From Bisporella sp. PMI_857 (Eukaryota; Ascomycota; Leotiomycetes; Helotiales; Helotiaceae), in contig JAJSPD010000022.1 of assembly GCA_021307315.1 (NCBI GenBank), positions 186,001 to 250,000 of the forward strand: a stretch of 64,000 nucleotides of DNA. Direction: 5' to 3'. A program made the translations under genes and the position numbers. Under the pieces are notes generated by a model, which was given only the letters and a program-made list of their open reading frames with translations, was not told the origin of the DNA and ran no database searches. This document shows positions 23,231 to 61,394 of this stretch, piece by piece; position 1 is the first letter of the stretch; each line of letters begins with the position of its first letter.

Positions 23231-23240
23231 TATATATAAG
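23231..23240 (+). promoter_or_regulatory. TATA box candidate for the H3-tail/F-box gene
   Basis: TATATATAAG lies about 100 bp upstream of the ATG at 23332. It is followed by a CT-rich leader (CTTCTTACTCCCTTCTG), a common arrangement at well-expressed fungal genes. This is positional evidence only. Confidence 0.4.
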
Positions 23241-23331: not shown

Positions 23332-24378
23332 ATGGCTCGAACAAAACAAACCGCCCGCAAGTCAACAGGTGGTCCGGCGCCTCGGAGACGGCTCGCTGGC
23401 TCTCATGGAGTATATTATGACTTGGTGGACAGAATACCTTCATTACAACAGCATATTGTCCCGAAAAAAGCTATGACTCCTGATACAGCGATGACTTCAA
23501 ATGCAGCAATAACATCAAACGCTCAAAAGACGGTGTTGTCCACTCCAGACCTTCTTGTCCTCATTCTATCTCAGCTTCCTCACTCCTCCTTGCTGAGAGC
23601 CAAACTGGTTAATAAAACATGGGCAAGCCTTTTTGAACACGTGGAAATTAAGGTTGCTTTATTTGAGCGCCCTGGGCCTAAAGGTTCGGCCTTATACACT
23701 GAAACATATTCAGATATATTGATGGACAAGTTCTCAGTTTTTTGGCCAATCAGTGGAGAAGAATCGGACAAAGTGATGTTGACAAAATCTTCTAAGGAGA
23801 GCAACGAAATGCCTGTCGATGAACCAAATATTCATGACCAATCAGAAATGCATTTACAGAAAACAAAGACTCTTCAACCGCGGCTACAAGGGTACGCAGA
23901 CAATTGTCACAATTGGCAATGGCGACAACTTCTTCTCTGCCAACCCGCTGTCGAAGCTCTAGAGATTGTGCAAGAGGTCGAGCAACGTGGCGGCGGTATT
24001 TTAGAATTCCGAACTATTATTCCTCGCCCTAACGGTTTGCGGATGGGGTTTCTTTACGATGCTGTTAGATATTGGCATAAAGTCGAAAGAAGCCCTGTTG
24101 AGCTGCTTTGGAATAGGAGAACCGGGGACCTTACCAATAGGAAGCATATTTACGTAGATGGTCCTAGTTACAAAACGGTTGAAGACCAGCCTTGCGTAAC
24201 TATCTCTGGACAGACTAGCGTAGGATGCGGACAATATGGCGGGCTTACGTATGAGAACTATGCATCTGCGCATTCTCATGCGCAAACACATAAGCCAAGA
24301 GCTCGGGTTATAAAAAGTGGTGATGAGGAGGTAGAATTTTTTATGTCGGAACCTAAAATCATAACCTATGATTGGTAG
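23332..24378 (+). CDS. F-box protein carrying a histone H3 N-terminal tail
   Basis: An uninterrupted 348-aa frame. After the initiator Met, residues reproduce the H3 tail: ARTKQTARKSTGG, then PAPRRRLA. Against canonical H3 residues 1-21, only positions 14 (K to P), 18 (K to R) and 19 (Q to R) differ; R2, T3, K4, R8, K9, S10 and T11 are kept. Residues 47-65 hold a degenerate triplicate (AMTPDT, AMTSNA, AITSNA). An F-box follows at about 70-102 (TPDLLVLILSQLPHSSLLRA, KLVNKTWASLF), the Skp1-binding module of SCF ubiquitin ligases. The C-terminal half (GGGILEFRTIIPRPNGLRMG, VGCGQYGGLTYENYASAH, then the GDEEVEFFM end) resembles a fungal F-box family I recall loosely. The protein could present an H3-like peptide to histone readers or modifiers and link them to ubiquitination; that role is inference. 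The start is fixed because the mimicry begins at the first Met. Confidence 0.85.
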   Translation: MARTKQTARKSTGGPAPRRRLAGSHGVYYDLVDRIPSLQQHIVPKKAMTPDTAMTSNAAITSNAQKTVLSTPDLLVLILSQLPHSSLLRAKLVNKTWASLFEHVEIKVALFERPGPKGSALYTETYSDILMDKFSVFWPISGEESDKVMLTKSSKESNEMPVDEPNIHDQSEMHLQKTKTLQPRLQGYADNCHNWQWRQLLLCQPAVEALEIVQEVEQRGGGILEFRTIIPRPNGLRMGFLYDAVRYWHKVERSPVELLWNRRTGDLTNRKHIYVDGPSYKTVEDQPCVTISGQTSVGCGQYGGLTYENYASAHSHAQTHKPRARVIKSGDEEVEFFMSEPKIITYDW

Positions 24379-33383: not shown

Positions 33384-36300
33384 TCATGATAGCAGGCGGG
33401 ACCGCAACAGCTTAACGACAGCTTCGTGCCCGTTCCGTGCAGCCCACTGGAGCGGCGTCCAGCCAGATTGATCTCTCGAGTCAGCGTCGACTTTGTCAGT
33501 ATCGAGTAGTAGCTTCACGACAGCTTCGCGCCCGCTCTGTGCGGCACACCGGAGCGGCGTCCGGCCAGATTGATCTCTCGAGTCAGCGTCGACTTTGCCA
33601 GTATTGAGTAGCAGCTTCACGACAGCTTCATGCCCGTTCTGTGCGGCACACCGGAGCGGCGTCCAGCCAGATGGGCCTATCGAGTCAGCGTCGACTTTGC
33701 CAGTATCGAGTAGTAGCTTGACAACAGCTTCGTGTCCGTTCTGCGCAGCCCCATGAAGCGGCGTCCAGCCAGATTGATCTTTCGAATCGGCGCCAACTTT
33801 ACCAGTATCGAGTAGCAGCTTTACAACAGCTTCATGCCCGTTCTCCGCCGCCCACTGGAGCGGCGTCCAGCTAAATTGATCTTTCAAGTCAGCATCGGCT
33901 TTGCCAGTATCGAGTAGCAGCTTGACAACAGCTTCGTGCCCGTTCTGCGCAGCCCTATGGAGCGGTGTCCAGCCAGATTGATCTTTCGAGTCAGCGCCAA
34001 CTTTGCCAGTATCGAGTAGCAGCTTGACAATAGCCTCGTGCCCGTTCTGCGCAGCCCTATGGAGCGGTGTCCAGCCAGATTGATCTCTCGAGTCAGCGTC
34101 GACTTTGCCTGTATCGAGTAGCAGCTTGACAACAGCATCGTGCCCGTTCTGCGCAGCCCTATGAAGCGGTGTCCAGCCATATTGATCTCTCGAGTCAGCG
34201 TCGGCTTTGCCAGTATTGAGTAGCAGCTTCACGACAGCTTCATGCCCGTTCTGCGCAGCCCCTTGAAGCGGCGTCCAGCTAGATGGGCCTATCGAGTCAG
34301 CGTCGACTTTGCCAGTATCGAGCAGCAGCTTCACAACAGCTTCGTGCCCGTTCTGCGCAGCCCCATGAAGCGGCGTCCAGCCAGATTGATCTTTCGAATC
34401 GGCGCCGACTTTACTAGTATCGAGTAGCAGCTTTACAACAGCCTCGTGCCCGTTCTGCGCAGCCCGCTGGAGTGGTGTCCAGCCAGATTGATCCTTCGAA
34501 TCAGCGTCGACCTTGCTAGTATCGAGTAGCAGCTTCACAACAGCTTCGTGCCCGTTCTGCGCAGCCCACTGGAGCGGCGTCCAGCCAGATGGGCTTATCG
34601 AGTCAGCGTCGACTTTGCCAGTATTGAGTAGCAGCTTCACGACAGCTTCGTGCTTGTTTTGCACAGCTTTATGGAGTGGTGTCCAGCCAGATTGATTTTT
34701 CAAGTCAGCGTCGACTTTGCCAGTATCGAGTAGCAGCTTGACAACAGCTTCGTGTCCGTTCCATGCAGCCCACTGGAGCGGCGACTGGCCAGATTGATCT
34801 TTCGAGTCAGCATTGACTTTGCCAGTATCGAGTAGCAGCTTCACTACAGCTTCGCGCCCGTTCTCCGCCGCCCAGTATAGTGCCGTCCGGCCAACGCCCT
34901 TCGCCTCCACGTCGGCCTTCGCCTCGAGCAGGAGCCTCACGACTGCCTCATGCCCATTCTCCACCGCCCAGTAAAGCGCAGTCCGGCCATCGCCATCCTT
35001 CACCTCTACGTCGGCCTTCCTCTCGAGTAGCCGCCTCACGACTGCCTCGTGCCCGTTCTGAGCCGCCCCGTACAGCGGCGTCCGGCCATCGCCATCCTTG
35101 TCTTTAAAACTTGCTCGCTTTCCTATTAGCAACGACACGATTTGATCATGTCCATTAATGGCAGCAAGCGAAAGTGGAGTACGCTTCTGATTTGAAGGTA
35201 TGTCAACTTTTGCCCCTTTCGCATTTGAAAGTAGCCTTGCTACCTTCACGTGGCCCTTCTCTGCAGAGTGATGCATAGCCGTATAACCCTCTCCATCTGT
35301 CTTGTTAACTGTGCAGACTCTTAACAGAAGTTCGACTACATCCTCAAATCCAAGTCTCGACGCCAAGTGTAGTGCAGAGAGACTGCCGCCGATGACCGGT
35401 GCATCGAAGAAATTCCTGGCACTATTGCGAGGTTCCGAAGCCAGGACAATGTCTAGGAGAGGTTTATGCTGCTCCTTCACAGCCCAACCAAGGAGTCCAT
35501 GTAGATGCGAGACTTGCGACTGGCCACTAGATATCCAAGGATGAAAATTCCAAGATCTGTTGGGATTGACGCTAAGCCGCTCGAACAAGTCCCAGACAGT
35601 AGATTGTCTGGTTATCATTTTTGTCTGTGTAGCCCAGTTTGCTACTGCGTAAGGAAGAAATTTATACTGTTCTTGATTTGCGATTGTTGTTGGCTTTCCG
35701 GGTAATCTTATAGAAATCGGTTTGTTTTGTTGGTCTGATGTCGGAGAAATGGCTCTACTAATTCTCGAGATGGCTGCTCCGAATCTGCCCAATGTTTGGG
35801 TCGCCATTAAGTCCTGTGGCATAACAGGAAGTCTTATATCTAAGTTCTTTTCTATTTGGAGGCCAAAATCGGAAAAAGAGAGGTAGGTGACACAAAACTC
35901 GCCGCACTTAAGCACGCCTTGTGTGGGATCAGTCGGGTATGAGTCGTCACTCCAATGTCTTTGGAGAAATTGCTTTACTGAGTGATGTGCGAAACGAACG
36001 CATTGATCAGTAGCATCTAACACGACCAGATTTGCACAGCAGCCAATCAAAAATGCCGATTTTGGTACTTTGCCAGAATCCCATGCTTTATCGCCCAAAT
36101 CAAAGGCCACTGCTTCCCTCAATTCGTCGATGTGGAGTGGCCGTGCGGCGTAGCTAACCCAATTTAGTACCTTTGTGGTATATTGCCTTCTATGACGGAT
36201 TCTTTGGAGACAACGACGGTAGGTCTCTTCTAGATCCCTTGGAAGATTTTTGATGGCTTCGTGCACATTACCGTCACTTGAATACGTATCCCATAGCGCT

Positions 36301-44685: not shown

Positions 44686-47600
44686 ATGAAAATGACGTCT
44701 CGTCCTCCACCACTCCTTACGCCTCTTATGTCTCAAGCATCTAACTCCCCAAGGCTGCCTAGTCCAGATAGTGCTGAGTGGCACCTTGCAAATGAGCAGA
44801 GGTTAATTGCAATTAAACTTCAGAGGGGAAAGGTTCTGGAACTAGAGCAGACGCAGCAGATTGCAAATCAACAGAGGGTAGAACAAGAACTCCAAAGAGG
44901 AAAGGGTGACGTGTTAAATTATAAGGAGGAGATTCGAGAGCTAGACCGTCAAGCACGCCAGCGTTGGCTTGATGATACTGCTCGGCGACAAACAGAGAAG
45001 CTAGCAGCGGTTGATAAACTCCGAAGGCAAAAATTGGAGAAGCAAGACCTGAGGGAAAAGATTCGAGCGCGAGACCGACAGCGTAAGCTTGATGAAGATG
45101 CTGCTAGGCGCGCTGAGGTGCGAAGAGGAAAAGAACAACAAGAAGCTGAGCGTGGAGAGAGGTCGAGACTTAATAGTCTTGCCCTTGTTCTGCAGACAGA
45201 AGAAACCTGGCGTTTACGAGATGAAGCACGTACTACGAAGCAGCTTGGGCAAAAAGCATTACGAGACGAAGCTGGTATGAAAGCTAGAGGCCAATTTAAG
45301 CGCCCAGCGAGTACTCAGGAGGCTATTGACCCTAGTCCCAAGAAGACGCTAGGGCGATTCGACGGCAGACGATCAAGGTATGTTGGCCAGGTCTGGATCT
45401 AGGAATCCTGATCATGATTCCTTTCTAGGACGAGAAATCCTCGACGATTAAACCTCGACTTTAATGACGAGATCCCGTCTTTTCTACGACTAGAGTTTGA
45501 ATATATGGGGGACGTTTCGTCGGCTTTCCCGGAGGATATTACGTCAACTATCAAGATGTCATGTATGAGAGCTTATCAAAGGGCTATGGCGCACGCCTCT
45601 AGACGACTACCTTGTGGGATCTGTGGGGGGTTGTTCCAAGAGGATCATACCCTTTCTGTTTCTCTCCAAGATGAGAATCTACTACACTACCTACAAGTTA
45701 CTCAAACTAGTCCGGATTCCTGCGCAGTTACTGACAATCAACTGTCTGTTTGTCTGACTTGCAATTCTTGTATCGCCAATAAGAATATCCCGCCGTTGTC
45801 TGCTGGGAACTTTGTGAACCGATTGTTCTGTCAAGATTATCCCGCTGCCCTTCGAGACCTCAATACTGTCGAAGAACGGTTTATTGCTCGTGCTCATGTT
45901 ATTGGTGCTTTCCTAAAGCTTACCTCTGGTGCTCAGAAGGGTACCAGTTACAGGGGGGCGCGCGGTCATTATGTTGCTGTAAAGCAGGACCCGAGCAACA
46001 TCCTTTCAATCCTGCCTACGAAGAGACTACAAGATCACACTACTATTACAGTGAGCTGGGAAAAGGAGACTCCGCCGTCAGAAGAGAACCTGGCTCGCTT
46101 CTGCTCAGTCAATAAGAATAAGGTTTTACAGGCCTTGTTGTGGCTCTGCGCCCATAACCCTGTATATGCGTCAGTGACGATCGACTATGAGCTGTTAGAT
46201 TCCTGGCCTCAAGACCACATCCCGCAAGAGATTCGAGATGCATTCCTTGCTTTGCAGACCAATACGACTTCTGGAGTTCAAGATGAGCGGGAAGGTTACG
46301 CAACTTCTCTACAAGACGGCTTGTTTGAGAATGAGCTTGATACAGAGGTAGAAAATCCTGAGCCAGGCACAATTGTTACCCGGTCGTTCTTTTCCGACTT
46401 CCATGGCCAGGATCCACAGGCCACTACCGCCCTGCTAGCAAGTCTTCAAGCTGTTCTGGAGAGTAAGGATTCTGACGGTGTACACGGCATGTTTAAACTC
46501 CCTTCCGCTTATAATTGAGTCCTTTACTAACAGGTACTGCTATATAAGAGATAAACTCGGTTCCTCGCAGGAGAGACAGTACAAGCCCTAGTACAGAGCC
46601 TCCTCTTGATCCGGTCAACCCACACATCTCTTACAAGAGTGTTCCAGCACTACCACTCCTCGACTCCTTTACTGATCCTGCATACTTTACTGGTGCATTC
46701 CCAACCCTGTTTCCGTACGGTGTTGGGGGCCATCTGGGTGACATACATGGGAATCGACCTCAAAAAGTATCACTTCAAGAATTTGCTAAATACGCAATGC
46801 TACATCATTCTCACTTGTGTGTAATACCCTTTCAAAGTTATACATCATAACTAATATCCTAGATTTTCCCAACACCATAACTTCATGTTCTATCTTTACG
46901 ATCTAATCCTTATTCGACAAGCATGTCTCGGAAACTACCTCCAGGTCAAAAAGGGTTACTGGGCGACCGCTACCGCAGATCTTGCAACACTGACAGGCGA
47001 TGAGCTACATGCTGCTGCTACTCAATTTCAAAGCAAGACCAAGATCTCGAACCCAGTGATTCATACCTTAATTAACAACATGAGGATTATTTCGTCCTTT
47101 AATCCAGAGTCCTATGGGGAAAAGATTAGACTCCGGAATCTTATTTTCGGAAAGATTGGACGTTTGGGAATTCCACTTATTTGGTTTACCCTTAATCCTC
47201 ACGACATAGGGAATATCTTTGTAGTAAAGTTAGCTGGGGAAGATATTATGCTCGACAACACAGGGGTTAAGTCGCGCTTGCTTAAGTTAACATTGAAGAA
47301 CCCAAGTCTAGTGGCTCAGTACTTCCATACTATTATTACTGCCTTCTTCGACTGCTTCTTCAAGTGTCTTTCTAGAGAAGCAGGTATCTTCGGCACTATC
47401 TCTTCCTACTTTGGAGTAGTGGAGTCAACGACACGGATGATGTTACACCTACACGGATTTGCCTGGCTTTCTGGGAACTTCGGTGCTGCAAACCTATCCC
47501 AGAGGCTAATTTCTGACAGCCAATTTAGGGATCGACTCATTACCTACATAGAGTCAATAATTAAGGAGACGGTTGATCTTACACTCGGTCAGCAGTTTGC

Positions 47601-50600
47601 TGCAGCCGAACCTCCTGGCTCAGCTACCTTTAGCATGCCACACGATATGACTCCTGAGGAGTTTGAGGATAAGCTTAACATTGACTCTAACAATGTTGCT
47701 GCTAAGGTCCAAATGCATGTCCACTCTCATACATGTACTAAATATCAAAGGAAGGACATGAAAGCTCGTCTCGAAACCCAGCAACGAGAGAATAAGCAAC
47801 GGCTTACAGGCAATATCCAGCCAACATCAATAGTTCAGGAGCCCAAACCGCAAAGGGCTCTTCTTCAGATCTGTCGATTCTTGTTTCCGAAACCACTAGT
47901 CCCGGAGTCTATTGTGACATCCGAAGGTTTTATTCGAATGCAAAGGAATCATCAGTTTGTGAACAAGTACAATCCTGTTATCTCTTCTACGATTAGATGC
48001 AACCACGATGTCAATTTTACGCCCTCATCGCCCAAGGTCCTTGCAGCTGTCTACTATATGACCAATTATGTTACAAAGTCTCAAACGGATCGTGGCCAAC
48101 TTGTACTTGCCGCTGCTGTTCTAAAGAAAGCTCAAGAGGTCGCTGAAGCTGAAGCAGCTGCGGACGTTGGGCTACCAGTCCCTAAACCTCTAGATATGGC
48201 CAAGTTTGCGTTGAAGGCGTATCACAGGTTTACAAGGGATACAGAGGTTGGAGCTCCTGCAGTGGCCCATTTCCTCCTTAACCAACCGTCGTTCTATGTG
48301 CCACAAGGGGGCCGGTCTGTCACTATTAACTTTTACTGGGTGAAAGGTGCTTTCCGGACTGCGCTTGCTGCATTGCTAGACGATGTTGCACCGGATATTG
48401 CTGCAATGGAGGCAGAACAGTATACTCAGTTTGACTCGGAAAGCCGCCGTCCCTCTTTATATGAGAACTACAGAAAACGGGGTCAGAAGCTAGCGGGTCT
48501 TTGTTTCTACGAGTACGCTTCTCAAATCTTCGTACAGACTTTTGCGGCTGCTGCAGGGCGTGGCATGTGCTTTCTGTTCGAAAATACACACCCGCTGCAT
48601 ACAACGCATGTGCAAGTCTCGGTCAGTTCAAGAGAAAGTCTAGCGACGCCTTCTTTATGTGGGAGCTTTACACGATTCCCGGATACCGAAAATAGTGTTC
48701 TTTCCAGTACGTCTAGGACTCAGGATGAGATTGACGAGACTTTACTTGGCTTATTCTACCCTTGGAATAGACTCCCTTTGGATTTTCCACAAGACCAACT
48801 TCGGGATCTTAGAGCCTCTGAACATAAGAACACTTACATCTGGAACCTAGTTGTCAAATCTCTGCCCCCATATCTGGTACATCTATCTCAGAATGTTCTG
48901 CTCTTACAACGAAGTAAAGAAGCTGCTGATAAAGATCGGAAGGAGCGAGGAATCGAGTTCAACGACTACCTAGAAACTACAGATTGCAACGCTTACAACG
49001 ACGAGGAAGAGGTTAACATCGATCTCGATTTTGCTACACTCCTTCCTACACAACACCATCTACTCCAGGCAGCCCTCGATGTCCGTGGTGATGTGAACCA
49101 TGGCACTAATAAGCTACGGGTCTTGCTAAATCCATTAAACACTAGCACACATTTTTGTGATAGTGCAATGGTTAAGACGTGGGGCAAAGAACTTCAGCCA
49201 TCTTCAGGACTTGAAGCTGAAGCCTGTAATAGCGTACCATCACTTTCTACCACTGATAAATCGACCTCCCTGGTCCCCTCTCTCGACCTCTTACCTCTTT
49301 CTACAGCCTCAATACCTATGTTACGAGCTATGTTTTACGCTACTCCTACTACCGACTCTGTGATGTCCCTAATCAGAAGCCAGTACCGGCTTAATAGTAA
49401 GCAGACGCTTGTCACCCGAGCTTTATTCGACCGGATTCTACATCCTATTCCGATCAATACTGCCAAAGATCAATTCCTGCTTTACCTTGGGGGTGTTGGC
49501 GGCGTCGGAAAGACTTACTTGATTAAAGCCTTTCTTTTTGGCCTCTCTATTATGGAGAGACAAGAAGACGTTCTCTTAACAGCTTCAACCGGGGTTGCGG
49601 CTGCGAACATTGGTGGCTCAACTTACCACTCTGCTCTTGCTTTATATGGCAACCAACCTGTACGCCCAGCGACAAAATTGAGGCTTGCTCACAAAAAGAT
49701 CTTTATCGCCGATGAAATCAGTATGGTCGGCCTTGAGGGCCTTGTTCAATTGGACGACCGCTGCAATGCTATATGGGATCTAAACAGAGAGGGCTCAACT
49801 GTCTTTGGCGGCCTTCCTATCATTATCTTCTTAGGGGACTTTAATCAATTCACTCCTGTTGGTGGGCATGCGATCTGGAGGCAGGATATATTTTATAATC
49901 AGGTGCTTCAAGCTGGAAAGTCTATTTGGAACCAATTTAACAAGGTAGTTCTTCTCACAGAACAGATGCGCCAAGCGGAAGACCTTCCATTTCAAGCTAT
50001 GTTAGAGAGAGCACGCTCTGCAACATTAACAGAAGAAGATGTAGCTATCTTGAATTCTCAGACAGTAGCTGCAAGAGTAGCGAGAGGAGAGGACCCACCA
50101 GATCGAGCTGTAATCCGAGTCAATCAACTTCGCGAAGACGTAAACCTCACCCAACTCGAAATCTTCGCTACAAAAAATGCACAAAAAATCTATCTCTTCC
50201 CTGCTCGACACGATACGCCAAATATAGCTACTGCTGATCATGCTCTTCTTATTAGGATGATGTTCCGAGTAGGAGAAGTAGGCAAACTCAAGGGTCCTGG
50301 GTTCCTTGCGTTTACTAAAGGGATGCCTGTTATGCTTTTGCACAATACAAGGACGAGCTCAGGTTTGGTTAATGGTATGAACGCAACTGCTGAGAGAGCG
50401 ATCTTAGATACAGACGTCCAAGGTGCGTCTCCACTTCCTTTTAGATGTCATGTGTTAACCTTTCAAAGCTACCTGGATAGAGCTCGACGACCTATATGTC
50501 TTATGTACTTCCCCGCTTCTAAGCCTCCTCGTACGGCCTACGCACGAGCACAATCTCTCATTCTCTAACCTGCCTGAGACGCTCGTTCCGATCCTACCAA

Positions 50601-52651: not shown

Positions 52652-54929
52652 CTACCCATCTTTAGTACTTTGGACTGACAATATAGCACCCTCTTGCTCA
52701 GCCTTCCATGTATATAAAGCTGTGCAGGATGATATAGTATGTGGATGATTAAGCCCCAAGACACGTTTCCGTGATTGTACACATTCTTCCATAAGTTTTA
52801 CAGCTTCAATTTCTCGGCCGGTTCCTTTCCACGTAAATGCCAGATTGTTCATGCTGGTCAGCGTGTCTGGGTGGTCCGCGCCGAGTTTCTTTTTGCTTGT
52901 TTCTATCACTTGCACCTCTAGCTTTTCAGCAGCGTCCCACCGGCCTTGATTCCGGTACGTCGATGCTAAGTTGGCCATGCTGGTCAGCGTGTCAGGATGG
53001 TCTGCGCCGAGTTTCTTCTTGCGAGTTTCCATCACTTGCACAAACAGCTTTTCAGCAGCGTCCCACCGGCCTTGATGTCGATACGTCGACGCTAAATTAG
53101 CCATGCTGGTCAGCGTGTTAGGATGGTCCGCGCCGAGTTTCTTCTTGCGAGTTTCTATTACTTGCACAAACAGCATTTCAGCAGCGTCCCACAAGCCATT
53201 AAGCTTATATGCCAAGCCCACCATTACCATACTATCCAGCGTATCGTCGTGCTTATGGCCGAAAATCTTCTTTCGAACTTTCATTACCTGAACCGCCATC
53301 TTCTCCGCCTCCACCCCTTTCCCTATTCTCCAGGCGTACCATGCGGCTTTGTAAAGTATTGAGGCCCAGTCTGTTAACGAATCTCGCTCGTCCGGCTGCT
53401 GTGCTACTGCCGATTGCGCGTGCGGGAAAAGCATCTGACATTTCGCCCAATTCTCATACTCTCCTGTTGGAAACTCTGCGTAAAGACTCTTGACAAATTG
53501 CTGTTTCCACTTTTCTTGCTGCTTGTGAGCTTTAAGCCATTCTCGCGTAGCTAGCTGTACTAGTCCGTGCATTTCGAAGGTTGTACCGTCCATATTGACA
53601 AAGATGAACGAGTAATTTCGTAGGGCCAAGATATCGTCTTCAAACCCATCACTCACACTAGACTGTGATGTTTTATCCTCATTGTCATCACTATAATTAG
53701 CATCGTTGTTCAAAAAACTATTGTGCTCGTTTTTTTCCTGGTCTTGCCACGAGTTTCTCCGCTCGCTTCGATTTCGAAGTAGAGTCTCGGGAATTCCTTG
53801 CCGGTCAAAAAAGCTCATGAGTGACAACAAATCAGCGGCTGATGGCCTTATTTCACGAATATGATCGAATGATATTTGCCATGTAATAATAATAGAGTTC
53901 TTTGCCTCCCGATCTCGACGAAGCTGTTCGCTCTGGTAATTAAGGAGACTAGATTTTTTGTAATCACTTTTCCGAAAGTCCTCCAGATATCTTCGCACGG
54001 AATAGCGCGGCACCCTTTGGGAGATGTATCTAGCAGCCTGAGCGATAGCAAGAGGCATAAATTCAAGGGCTGCGACGAGCTCCGAAGTGTCACCGCTGTT
54101 GTCATGCTTTCCTAGCTTGTTCTCGAATAGTGCCAGCGCATCTGCCCTGCCCATCGGTTCAACTGTGATAATATTACGCTTATCAACCAGCTTTAGCGCG
54201 GCGCTTTCGCTTCGTGTTGTTATAAGAATCGATCCATTCAGGCACTGCGGAATATATTCCACCAGCGGTCGCGAGTTCCCACTCCTTATGCCGTTTGTTT
54301 GGCCATCCTGGCCGGCGCTTTGATCCTCCACGAGGAAGCCAGCATCATCCACATTGTCTAGTATAAGAACCCACTCTTTCCTATCATCGCACAGCCAGTC
54401 GTGTACGAGCTGGAAAATACTGGCCGTTGGATTCTGCCGCCCAAATATCTTGACACGGTCCGCAATATCTCGAAAGCTCTGCTCAAACCGGGCGGCATTG
54501 CTTGTGTGGGCCCAAAAAACCCACATTTTGGGGGATCGGCCTTTGATTTGATATGCGTATTCGATGGCGAGTTGCGATTTGCTTCACGGCAGTTAGCCAT
54601 TGTAGTAACAAAAGTGTTTGCGCCTACCCAACGCCGCCCAGGCCAACAAGCGCAGTTCGAGATCCTAAAACAGCGCATTTCTGATGGATCTGATCAAGTA
54701 TCCCTCTATGGACAAAGTCTGTGTCGCGACTGAAGGGTATGACGATTGATGGGTTCGGCGGGGTCTCTAGCCGCTCTGGAGCGGGCCGACGTTAGCGCCG
54801 TTAAGCTTGGACTTTTTGCACCTCACCAGGAGGGGTATGGTGGTGGATATTGACTGGACCGACCGAACCGCTGATGATCCCTGCCTGGAAGCCGATGTTG
54901 CCGTCGCCAAAAGATATCGCGGATGCCAT
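52652..54929 (-). CDS. Sigma-motif NB-ARC-TPR NLR-like protein
   Basis: Three exons, 54929-54827, 54775-54628 and 54581-52652 (726 aa); introns are 51 bp (GTGAGG...CTCCAG) and 46 bp (GTAGGC...GTGAAG). The N-terminal residues ISFGDGNIGFQAGIISGSVG form a sigma-type amyloid motif of the kind that templates SesA/SesB effectors. Then come IPFSRDTDFVHRGILDQI, P-loop GLGGVGKS (79-86), MWVFWAHTSNAARFEQSFRD, Walker B WVLILDNVDD (about 153-162), SILITTRSESAAL and MEPMGRADALALFENKLG-type NB-ARC features (reads VEPMGRADALALF), MPLAIAQAARYI and MHGLVQLATREWLKAH. The C-terminus carries TPRs (LGADHPDTLTSMANLASTYR units of 42 aa), at least three nearly identical. It likely oligomerises on ligand sensing and seeds death-effector amyloid; that mechanism is known for the family and inferred here. 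Confidence 0.85.
52830..53215 (-). repeat. 126-bp coding tandem repeats (TPR)
   Basis: Three near-identical 42-aa units (WDAAEKLFVQVMETRKKKLG + ADHPDTLTSMANLASTYRNQ + GR) at the 3' end of the NLR, with variation mainly at a few helix positions; a fourth, more diverged unit follows. Confidence 0.8.
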
Positions 54930-59264: not shown

Positions 59265-61394
59265 ATGTATGGCTACATTTCCATGACTGCTTCGGCGATG
59301 TCTAGCCGATCTCCCCTCCTTAGGGTCAACAATGCCATACAAGAGCGTCTATATGATGCCATGGAAGTGATGGCAAGAAAGTGGCACCATTATGGAGAAA
59401 CAAACAGGTACTCCAAGGAGCCGATTGAGCTAAGTGACGGACCACCGATCGAAAAACTGTGTACCTTAGGAAGGCTTCAATATCAGCGTCACCGGTACAG
59501 CCCACTTTATCACGATGAACTAGCAGCCACATCGGTTGTAGGCGAAAAGAAGCCTGTCAGATTATTGGAGCTTTTGCAGCCCGAAACCACGAACAGCGAA
59601 TTAATCCGCTGCAAGCTACATATATATTCTCTGGACGAAGCGCCAGAGTACGAGGCTATCTCGTACACATGGGGGGTCGTAAATACACAAGACTTTCCGG
59701 TCATTGTGGTCACGGGCGTTACGACTCATGACAACACACTAGAGCCCGTGAAGGTGGAAGCCGTAGAGATCACGCATCATTTATACGCAGCGCTGAGGAG
59801 ACTACGCCATCCTACCCAATCGCGGTTTCTGTGGGCAGATCAAATCTGCATCAATCAAGTTGACAAGGGGGAGAAGAGTAAGCAAGTGCGGCAGATGGGT
59901 GATATCTACAGAAAATCCAAGCACACGGTTATATGGCTAGGCGAAGAGGACTGGGACAAAGATGTGATTGCAGAGATGTTTACAGAGCTCAAAAACACAC
60001 CGTTCACCTCTGTGAAGGACGACTTCAAGCTATTCAAGAATCTCTTAGATCTCGAGGAGTCTGTCTATACAACACCACATATGACACCTCCCAAACAGTG
60101 GCGACGCCAAGCCGTGACTCGCCTTTTAAACCGAACCTGGTTCAGCAGAGTGTGGGTCTTCCAAGAAGCCGTCGTCTCTCCCGAGGTCGAAGTCATATAC
60201 GGCAGTCTAAAACTCCCACTCAAAGAGCTCTTCCGACTCACCCGTGCCGTCTTCGAAGTCGAGAGCGCCTCCGGCGGATACGCGCGCTCCATAGCCAAAA
60301 GGACAGTCGGATTTGACACTCTCTACCTGGTCCAACACAGCCGAGGCGGCTGCGGCGTCCCGGGCTGCCCACGAGAAAAGGTGCCACAGAATTTTTTTGG
60401 CCTTGTGATACAAGCCCTTCAACAGCTACACGCCACGAAAGAACTAGACTTAATCTACGCGTTTGTTGGATTCGAGAGTCCGCAGGCCAACCCAAAAATC
60501 GAAGTCGACTACAAATTACCAGTCCGCACAGTTTGGATGAATGCCGCTAGAACTATCATCCAGAACTCCCGCTCACTCGACATCTTTGCGGCTGCGAAGG
60601 GCGACGCGAGATGTGAGTATGACCTGCCATCGTGGGTCCCTGACTTTTCGAGATGCTATCCCTACGCGCGGCCGATCACGGCGCCGGACTTCAACACAGC
60701 ATTCAAGGCTTCAGGGGGCCTGCCGCACACCTGGGAAGGCGCAACAGATACAGAGACTCTTATTGTTAAGGGAAAGGTTATTGGCACAATGATGTGGTTC
60801 TCCCCGGTGAATTTCGACCGCAAGTACCATCTCGAGGAACCCCAGGGTACAAAGGCTGTGCTGGACTACGAAAATCACGCAACAGCGATGGCAGAATACA
60901 TTCGTGGTGTTGTAACGCCACAGAAAAGGCAAGAGCTAGTGGGATGCTACCACACACTAGTCCGTACTCTCCTTGCTGACGGGGCATTCGGCCATGAACA
61001 ACCGCTAGAGTATAGCATGGACAAAATCATCCAGGTGTGCGAGAACGAAGATAAGATCCAAGCGGCCAACGACACTGCTAGGCCAGGGCCTGCTGATAGT
61101 GATTATGAGATCCTAGAGAAATTGCGAGTGTGGGGTCTTATTGTCCAGCAAAAACGGTTGTTCCTTTCTGATAAACACGATATGGGTCTTGTGCCGAAGA
61201 CGGCGCATGAGGGTGACTTGATATGTTTGCTACATGGGTCGAAAGTCCCTTGCGTTTTGAGGCGGACCGGCGTTGGTGAGGAGACATATCGGATTATCTC
61301 GCAATGCTATTTAGACGGGAAGATGAATTGCAATGAATCACCTGAGAGGAGGGTATGGTTGGAAGAAGGCTCTGAGGAGTTTGTGCTAGTGTGA
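59265..61394 (+). CDS. HET-domain heterokaryon incompatibility protein
   Basis: One uninterrupted 709-aa frame. The HET domain (PF06985) lies at about 129-345, with the three hallmark blocks YEAISYTWG, RFLWADQICINQ and EKSKQVRQMGDIYRKSKHTV followed by IWLGEE. Then come LLNRTWFSRVWVFQEAVVSP, a Cys-rich insert (RGGCGVPGCPREK), DLIYAFVGF, LPSWVPDFSR and a C-terminal block ending near LVPKTAHEGDLICLLHGSKV, PCVLRR. Intact HET proteins cause or execute vegetative incompatibility. The first Met is used; Met7 and Met12 are alternatives. The length is normal for a stand-alone HET protein. It is the only intact gene between 55 and 64 kb. Confidence 0.9.
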   Translation: MYGYISMTASAMSSRSPLLRVNNAIQERLYDAMEVMARKWHHYGETNRYSKEPIELSDGPPIEKLCTLGRLQYQRHRYSPLYHDELAATSVVGEKKPVRLLELLQPETTNSELIRCKLHIYSLDEAPEYEAISYTWGVVNTQDFPVIVVTGVTTHDNTLEPVKVEAVEITHHLYAALRRLRHPTQSRFLWADQICINQVDKGEKSKQVRQMGDIYRKSKHTVIWLGEEDWDKDVIAEMFTELKNTPFTSVKDDFKLFKNLLDLEESVYTTPHMTPPKQWRRQAVTRLLNRTWFSRVWVFQEAVVSPEVEVIYGSLKLPLKELFRLTRAVFEVESASGGYARSIAKRTVGFDTLYLVQHSRGGCGVPGCPREKVPQNFFGLVIQALQQLHATKELDLIYAFVGFESPQANPKIEVDYKLPVRTVWMNAARTIIQNSRSLDIFAAAKGDARCEYDLPSWVPDFSRCYPYARPITAPDFNTAFKASGGLPHTWEGATDTETLIVKGKVIGTMMWFSPVNFDRKYHLEEPQGTKAVLDYENHATAMAEYIRGVVTPQKRQELVGCYHTLVRTLLADGAFGHEQPLEYSMDKIIQVCENEDKIQAANDTARPGPADSDYEILEKLRVWGLIVQQKRLFLSDKHDMGLVPKTAHEGDLICLLHGSKVPCVLRRTGVGEETYRIISQCYLDGKMNCNESPERRVWLEEGSEEFVLV

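Follow-up and report, generated by a model that had tools for sequence, protein, structure and literature searches.

Results

A gene whose product joins the histone H3 tail to an F-box

We found that a gene of Bisporella sp. PMI_857 encodes an F-box protein with the tail of histone H3 as its N terminus. This combination of tail and F-box is real and conserved; we hold both its existence and its conservation with strong confidence. The gene lies in a 64,000-nt stretch of the genome (contig JAJSPD010000022.1, positions 186,001 to 250,000 of the forward strand), hereafter the window. It consists of a 348-aa ORF at 23332-24378 on the forward strand, a single open frame in the raw DNA that starts at an ATG and is preceded by an in-frame stop 15 codons upstream, and the genome holds one full match of it. 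A preliminary description, made from the letters of the window, had reported an open frame with H3 mimicry from the initiator Met, a TATA box and an F-box at about residues 70-102. Our analysis recovered the frame, its start and the TATA-like box, and placed the F-box close to the described position (Table 1).

The N terminus of this protein (P0001) reads MARTKQTARKSTGGPAPRRRLAGS. It matches H3 at 19 of 22 residues when the Met is counted and, as had been described, at 18 of 21 without it, the departures being K14P, K18R and Q19R. In a phmmer sequence search of the PDB, H3 peptides were the top matches (E 4.2e-5, over residues 1-23). The F-box scored 26.9 bits versus a curated cut-off of 20.5 for PF00646. 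No histone fold (PF00125) was listed for the protein among Pfam matches at E<=1; the resident H3 gene has this domain. Furthermore, the Pfam matches included no H3 reader domain, and for the C-terminal domain no Pfam family was listed and neither a clear fold nor a convincing relative was found in the PDB. Directly past the tail, the start of the linker carries a partly conserved Y-x-Y-G-x-x-P-like stretch in many relatives.

Table 1. Features of the F-box gene and its upstream region (window coordinates)
Feature	Position	Strand	Remarks
TATA-like box (TATATAT)	23231..23237	+	101 nt 5' of start codon; consensus match
H3 N-terminal tail, codons 1-22, MARTKQTARKSTGGPAPRRRLA	23332..23397	+	match to H3
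Variable linker, codons 23-63	23398..23520	+	32% pairwise identity in tail rows
F-box (PF00646), codons 72-107	23545..23652	+	Pfam E 4.1e-6
Disordered variable spacer, codons 139-190	23746..23901	+	pLDDT <50; 30% pairwise identity over 141-193
C-terminal alpha/beta domain, codons 191-348	23902..24375	+	candidate substrate or partner domain

Elsewhere in the window, some 21 kb away from the F-box gene, a Helitron-like element at 45505-50568 comprises two adjacent ORFs, one with DUF6570 and the other with Helitron_like_N and PIF1 helicase domains. Ankyrin-repeat, TPR/DUF7779 and HET-domain ORFs were observed at 33384-35822, 52652-54526 and 59265-61394, respectively; proteins of these kinds are often met in fungal allorecognition.

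A structure model of the protein, built with the 63 sequences of its family, had a mean pLDDT of 65. Values for the first 20 residues were about 46-52, giving no confident placement of the tail, and the segment 15-58 remained below 50, so that the tail is predicted to be exposed and disordered. The F-box was modelled as helices at a block pLDDT of about 50-65, and the C-terminal alpha/beta domain, from residue 201 on, reached block values of 74-95.

The tail is present across a family found in two fungal classes

A protein search for the F-box family returned 63 rows, including the query. Rows were counted as tail-bearing when 14 or more of the 22 aligned tail positions agreed with H3. By this measure we found the tail in 32, a degenerate tail in two (P0036 and P0044), no tail in seven long, divergent rows (P0042, P0048, P0054, P0055, P0057, P0059 and P0061), and 22 rows that were fragments or began too late to be judged. 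Among the last group, P0049 from Zarea opens with MSQSNQTA like P0044, and by eye lacks most of the tail and linker. Of the 25 rows sourced from NCBI, 18 had the tail, six (P0049 among them) started late and one (P0059) lacked it. Because 32 of the 63 rows, query included, carry the tail, its H3 likeness is not a chance match. The possibility, raised in the preliminary description, that close homologues might lack the tail does not hold for the family as a whole, and applies to the seven long rows and one clade of five.

This clade (P0007, P0017, P0020, P0023 and P0041) comprises Venustampulla_b, Scytalidium, Xylogone and two rows from metagenomes. Its annotated sequences lack the tail, and the family tree places it among tail bearers. 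Either the tail was lost or is dispensable there, or the 5' end or an exon was missed. Tail bearers include Stipitochalara, Venustampulla, Pseudogymnoascus, Oidiodendron, Glarea, Cadophora, Aphanocladium and Lecanicillium; of the lineages that we looked up, Pseudogymnoascus belongs to the Leotiomycetes and Aphanocladium to the Hypocreales in the Sordariomycetes. Overall identity between P0001 and its Aphanocladium relative is 43%, yet the two have 19 of 22 tail residues in common as counted by eye.

Individual tail residues differ sharply in conservation

Pairwise identity among the 32 tail rows, which were picked for their H3 likeness, was 87% over residues 1-13, 65% over 14-22, 32% over the linker (23-63) and 78.5% over 64-111. 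Among 37 rows with letters over the tail, picked without an H3 condition, the values for the same four segments were 72.6, 57.4, 28.8 and 77.2%.

We next counted changes per site as the fewest required on a tree built without the tail, i.e. from residue 64 onward. The tree holds 61 rows, P0052 and P0062 being omitted; it was made by a quick method that left 25 of its 58 inner branches unresolved and set several tail-less rows on long branches. When the tail rows and the seven long rows without tail were considered, presence or absence of the tail required at least three changes. Over the 30 tail rows placed on the tree, A1, R2, Q5, R8 and S10 showed no change, T3, A7, T11, G13, A15, P16 and R17 showed one, T6 and L20 two, and K4 four. 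The fast sites were K14 and K18 (14 changes each), Q19 (11), K9 (9), and G12 and A21 (7 each), and linker sites mostly required 7-17. Thus, the tail is not conserved as a unit. K9, K14 and K18, together with G12, Q19 and A21, vary in the manner of linker sites, and the other sites are fixed or nearly so.

Residue counts in the 32 tail rows gave the same picture. R2, R8 and R17 together were kept in 95 of 96 cells, and position 4 was K in 27 rows, R in four and N in one. Position 9 was K in 21 rows, R in seven and another residue in four, and K14 and K18 were retained in only five and four rows, respectively. With K9 so variable, the reading of K9 methylation cannot be the general function of the tail. 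The idea put forward in the preliminary description, of an exposed H3-like tail on an F-box protein that might recruit or decoy H3 binders, is strengthened by the conservation of the tail in two classes and by its predicted disorder, but the emphasis on K9 is not supported.

The tail is diverged from the resident H3 gene

The resident canonical H3 gene, on contig C35, is oriented divergently from an H4-type match. Its codon R8 is interrupted by a 201-nt phase-1 intron, which the F-box gene lacks. The comparison with resident H3 that the preliminary description had proposed gave, over codons 1-22, seven identical, 12 synonymous and three nonsynonymous codons; 12 of the 19 residue-matching codons thus differ synonymously. 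By NG86, dN was 0.089 and dS was not estimable. This comparison covered the canonical gene on C35; the genome has other H3-like loci, e.g. on contigs C24 and C80. The missing intron and the 12 synonymous differences make recent copying of the resident H3 gene unlikely, and the tail likely originated in an old event, intron-free or intron-losing, from H3 coding sequence. Selection on the protein sequence of the tail is indicated by the residues that are fixed family-wide at the protein level, together with the synonymous divergence from H3. A role in phosphorylation, localisation or autoinhibition would explain the conservation just as well as the bait role proposed below.

An H3-like variant gene starting MARTKQTATKSARKPS was also observed in near-identical copies at L007, L008 and L010 (contigs C3, C221 and C14). 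The copies on C3 and C221 are 99% identical over 2206 bases, and the third has stops in its histone part and Ile in place of the start Met. In other fungi, Dothideomycetes, hAT elements capture and multiply histone H3, and in six species the repeated copies, apart from the presumed original, are RIP-inactivated, according to passages of PMC6710886. The damaged variant copy is reminiscent of such RIP-damaged, transposon-borne H3 copies.

H3 tails occur on other non-histone proteins

An H3-tail search of the genome identified four places: H3, the locus L002, the F-box gene and a weakly matching stretch that contains a stop. A control search with the H4 tail returned just two H4-type matches. L002:250-2802 (contig C274) encodes P0070/P0071, P0071 being 100% identical to the L002 protein over the 121 residues searched. 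This protein has H3 residues 2-30 in an internal stretch from residue 418, in a region (407-465) that is disordered, with pLDDT <50. No Pfam family was listed for P0071; its model resembles reverse transcriptases (R2, LINE-1, group II), with a best Foldseek E of 2.2e-8 and low TM-scores.

We aligned 32 of the 50 proteins found, omitting 18 (11 that were partial or of other length, plus P0114-P0120), and at least 15 of 29 H3 residues were present, ungapped, in 22 of the 32. Arginines were largely kept (R2 25/27, R8 26/30, R17 27/30, R26 26/30), as were K4 (23/27), K27 (21/30) and Q19 (24/30). Other lysines were looser (K9 10/30, K14 17/32, K18 9/30, K23 12/30), and S10 and L20 were retained in 18/29 and 17/32. 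The parallel to the F-box family is therefore partial: lysines are loose in both, but here S10 and L20 are not strict and Q19 is kept. Pairwise identity among RT-like carriers was 55% for the H3 stretch, 40% and 31% for the flanking spacers and 61% for the RT part.

Nine further carriers were tabulated, and two of them have E3-type domains. Podospora comata P0067 is an F-box protein of a different family with an N-terminal H3 tail, whose convincing alignment with P0001 is confined to that tail; P0120, from EukProt, has U-box and VWA domains and an N-terminal H3 tail. Across the nine, R2, R8 and R17 were kept in 27 of 27 cells and K4 in eight of nine proteins, with K14 in five and K9, K18 and Q19 in four each. 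These carriers were found by tail similarity, are mostly single clusters and in some cases metagenomic, and are thus leads rather than a census. The table of nine omits three histone-domain hits and P0118, a VIT-VWA protein with a split tail. P0118 starts MARTKQTARGG, following H3 to R8, which is the intron position of the resident H3, and also carries STGGAAPRKQLASKAARKSAPS internally; this possibly reflects exon capture or a joined gene model.

Discussion

We propose that the tail of this F-box family is an H3 mimic that serves as bait: a protein that binds the H3 tail would bind it, the F-box would dock on Skp1-Cul1, and the binder or its cargo would be ubiquitinated. We consider this the most likely among several readings, and hold it tentatively, with somewhat less than even confidence. 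An initiator Met that precedes Ala is usually removed, and by this rule the chain would open with A1-R2-T3 as in H3. The tail, predicted to be exposed and disordered, would then act as the bait. The pattern of conservation suggests that the binder is a protein whose usual ligand or substrate is the H3 tail, and that it may contact A1-T3, Q5-R8, S10-T11, G13, A15-R17 and L20 and leave the side chains of K9, K14 and K18 unused. With K9, K14 and K18 so free to vary, H3 mimicry by the tail would not depend on their usual marks, and the tail would often be unable to receive them. The footprint of fixed sites speaks against a K9 reader, against K14 acetylation and against the tail being a simple import signal. 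Candidate binders are enzymes or readers with a grip on A1-R2-T3 and further contacts along the tail, such as LSD1-type and PHD-type proteins and kinases. Through its F-box, which probably docks on Skp1-Cul1, the protein would bring about ubiquitination of the bound chromatin protein or of its cargo.

Several other explanations were weighed against the bait mechanism. The tail might be a regulatory sensor, modified by H3 kinases (T3, T6, S10, T11) or arginine methyltransferases (R2, R8, R17), which would switch or destroy the F-box protein and tie SCF activity to the cell cycle. The fixed positions do include modifiable Ser, Thr and Arg, and R8 and S10 are present in 32 of 32 rows with a drifting K9 between them, which is the pattern that a basophilic kinase consensus leads one to expect; a kinase site alone, however, would not need the nearly fixed Q5, A7, A15, P16 and L20, and we regard this explanation as unlikely. 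It is rather improbable that the C-terminal domain binds the H3 tail and is occupied by the protein's own tail as a pseudo-ligand within the same molecule, a role that an H3-mimic sequence plays in Swi6/HP1. That domain, without a recognised fold and with 61% pairwise identity over residues 194-320 in tail rows, would suit such a role, and autoinhibition by an H3 mimic has a precedent (Canzio et al. 2013, as cited in passages of PMC7192584). However, the model, at the low tail pLDDT given above, offers no confident place for the tail, and rows without the tail still align across the C-terminal domain.

A merely localising function, as a nuclear import or chromatin-binding peptide, would suit a tail that is basic, N-terminal and predicted to be disordered, but the fixation of A1, Q5, A7, S10, G13, A15 and P16 is more than a generic basic signal would require. 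Moreover, K14 is a key importin contact of H3 and is kept in just five of 32 rows, and we give this function little credence. Still less do we credit a decoy without ubiquitination, in which tail and H3 would be rival ligands of an enzyme or reader and the F-box would be incidental or serve self-degradation. It shares the tail logic of the bait mechanism, and an E3 domain is absent from most other tabulated carriers, e.g. the RT-like family; against it, the F-box stretch is conserved about as well as the tail (78.5% pairwise over 64-111), and a low-abundance protein would be a poor competitor of H3. Finally, a functionless relic of a captured H3 start, or a gene-model error, was already disfavoured and is barely credible. 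Capture and multiplication of H3 by hAT elements in other fungi, as described in part of PMC6710886, would provide a route to such a relic, but selective conservation across fungal classes, synonymous divergence from the resident H3, a single open frame in raw DNA and one full gene match in the genome all speak against it.

If the bait mechanism is true, this family would be nature's equivalent of a targeted degrader, in that an E3 receptor carries a chromatin ligand as bait. The fixed and free residues would then amount to a ready-made mutational scan of the H3-tail interface across long evolution, one that points to a binder ignoring K9, K14 and K18. A wider version of this idea is that the H3 tail has been attached again and again to unrelated proteins in fungi and perhaps in protists, with at least two cases among fungal F-box proteins and one in a EukProt U-box protein. 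Such grafts would tend to lose some of K9, K14 and K18 and to hold the arginines together with Q5, A7, A15 and P16, and would be ubiquitin ligases that recruit substrates through a piece of chromatin, as bait for an H3-tail-binding factor indifferent to acetylation. We consider this generalisation doubtful at present.

Comparison with known systems

Among the matches listed in the open PMC literature, which mostly excludes subscription papers, none described an F-box protein that bears an H3 tail, and the combination is undescribed as far as open-literature searches show.

SNAG domains are short N-terminal peptides that are loosely H3-like, and the H3-mimic sequence of Swi6 is internal. Unlike SNAG, the F-box protein has about 20 residues of recognisable H3 sequence. 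The SNAG domain of Snail-type repressors is an H3-tail mimic in LSD1, as set out in passages of PMC10940100, and in both cases a protein segment takes the place of the H3 tail in engaging a chromatin enzyme, putatively so for the F-box tail. Passages of PMC7192584 (citing Canzio 2013) describe Swi6/HP1 as autoinhibited by its H3-mimic sequence. Swi6 resembles the F-box family in being a fungal non-histone protein with an H3-like stretch; it differs in that its mimic inhibits its own protein, whereas the F-box family has an N-terminal tail and no Pfam H3 reader domain. The EHMT2 targets WIZ and LIG1 carry H3K9-like mimics, according to part of PMC10611923, and share with the F-box protein a linear H3-like motif on a non-histone protein; K9 methylation is central to them, whereas K9 is among the looser sites of the F-box tail. 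With the hAT-captured H3 copies (Dhillon 2019), as portrayed in part of PMC6710886, the F-box gene shares H3 coding sequence in a new fungal genomic setting. Those copies are multiple and lie in repeats, whereas the F-box gene has one full genome match and no histone fold. Finally, the protein follows ordinary fungal F-box proteins (PF00646) in having an F-box and then a C-terminal domain, and departs from them in the H3 tail with which it begins.
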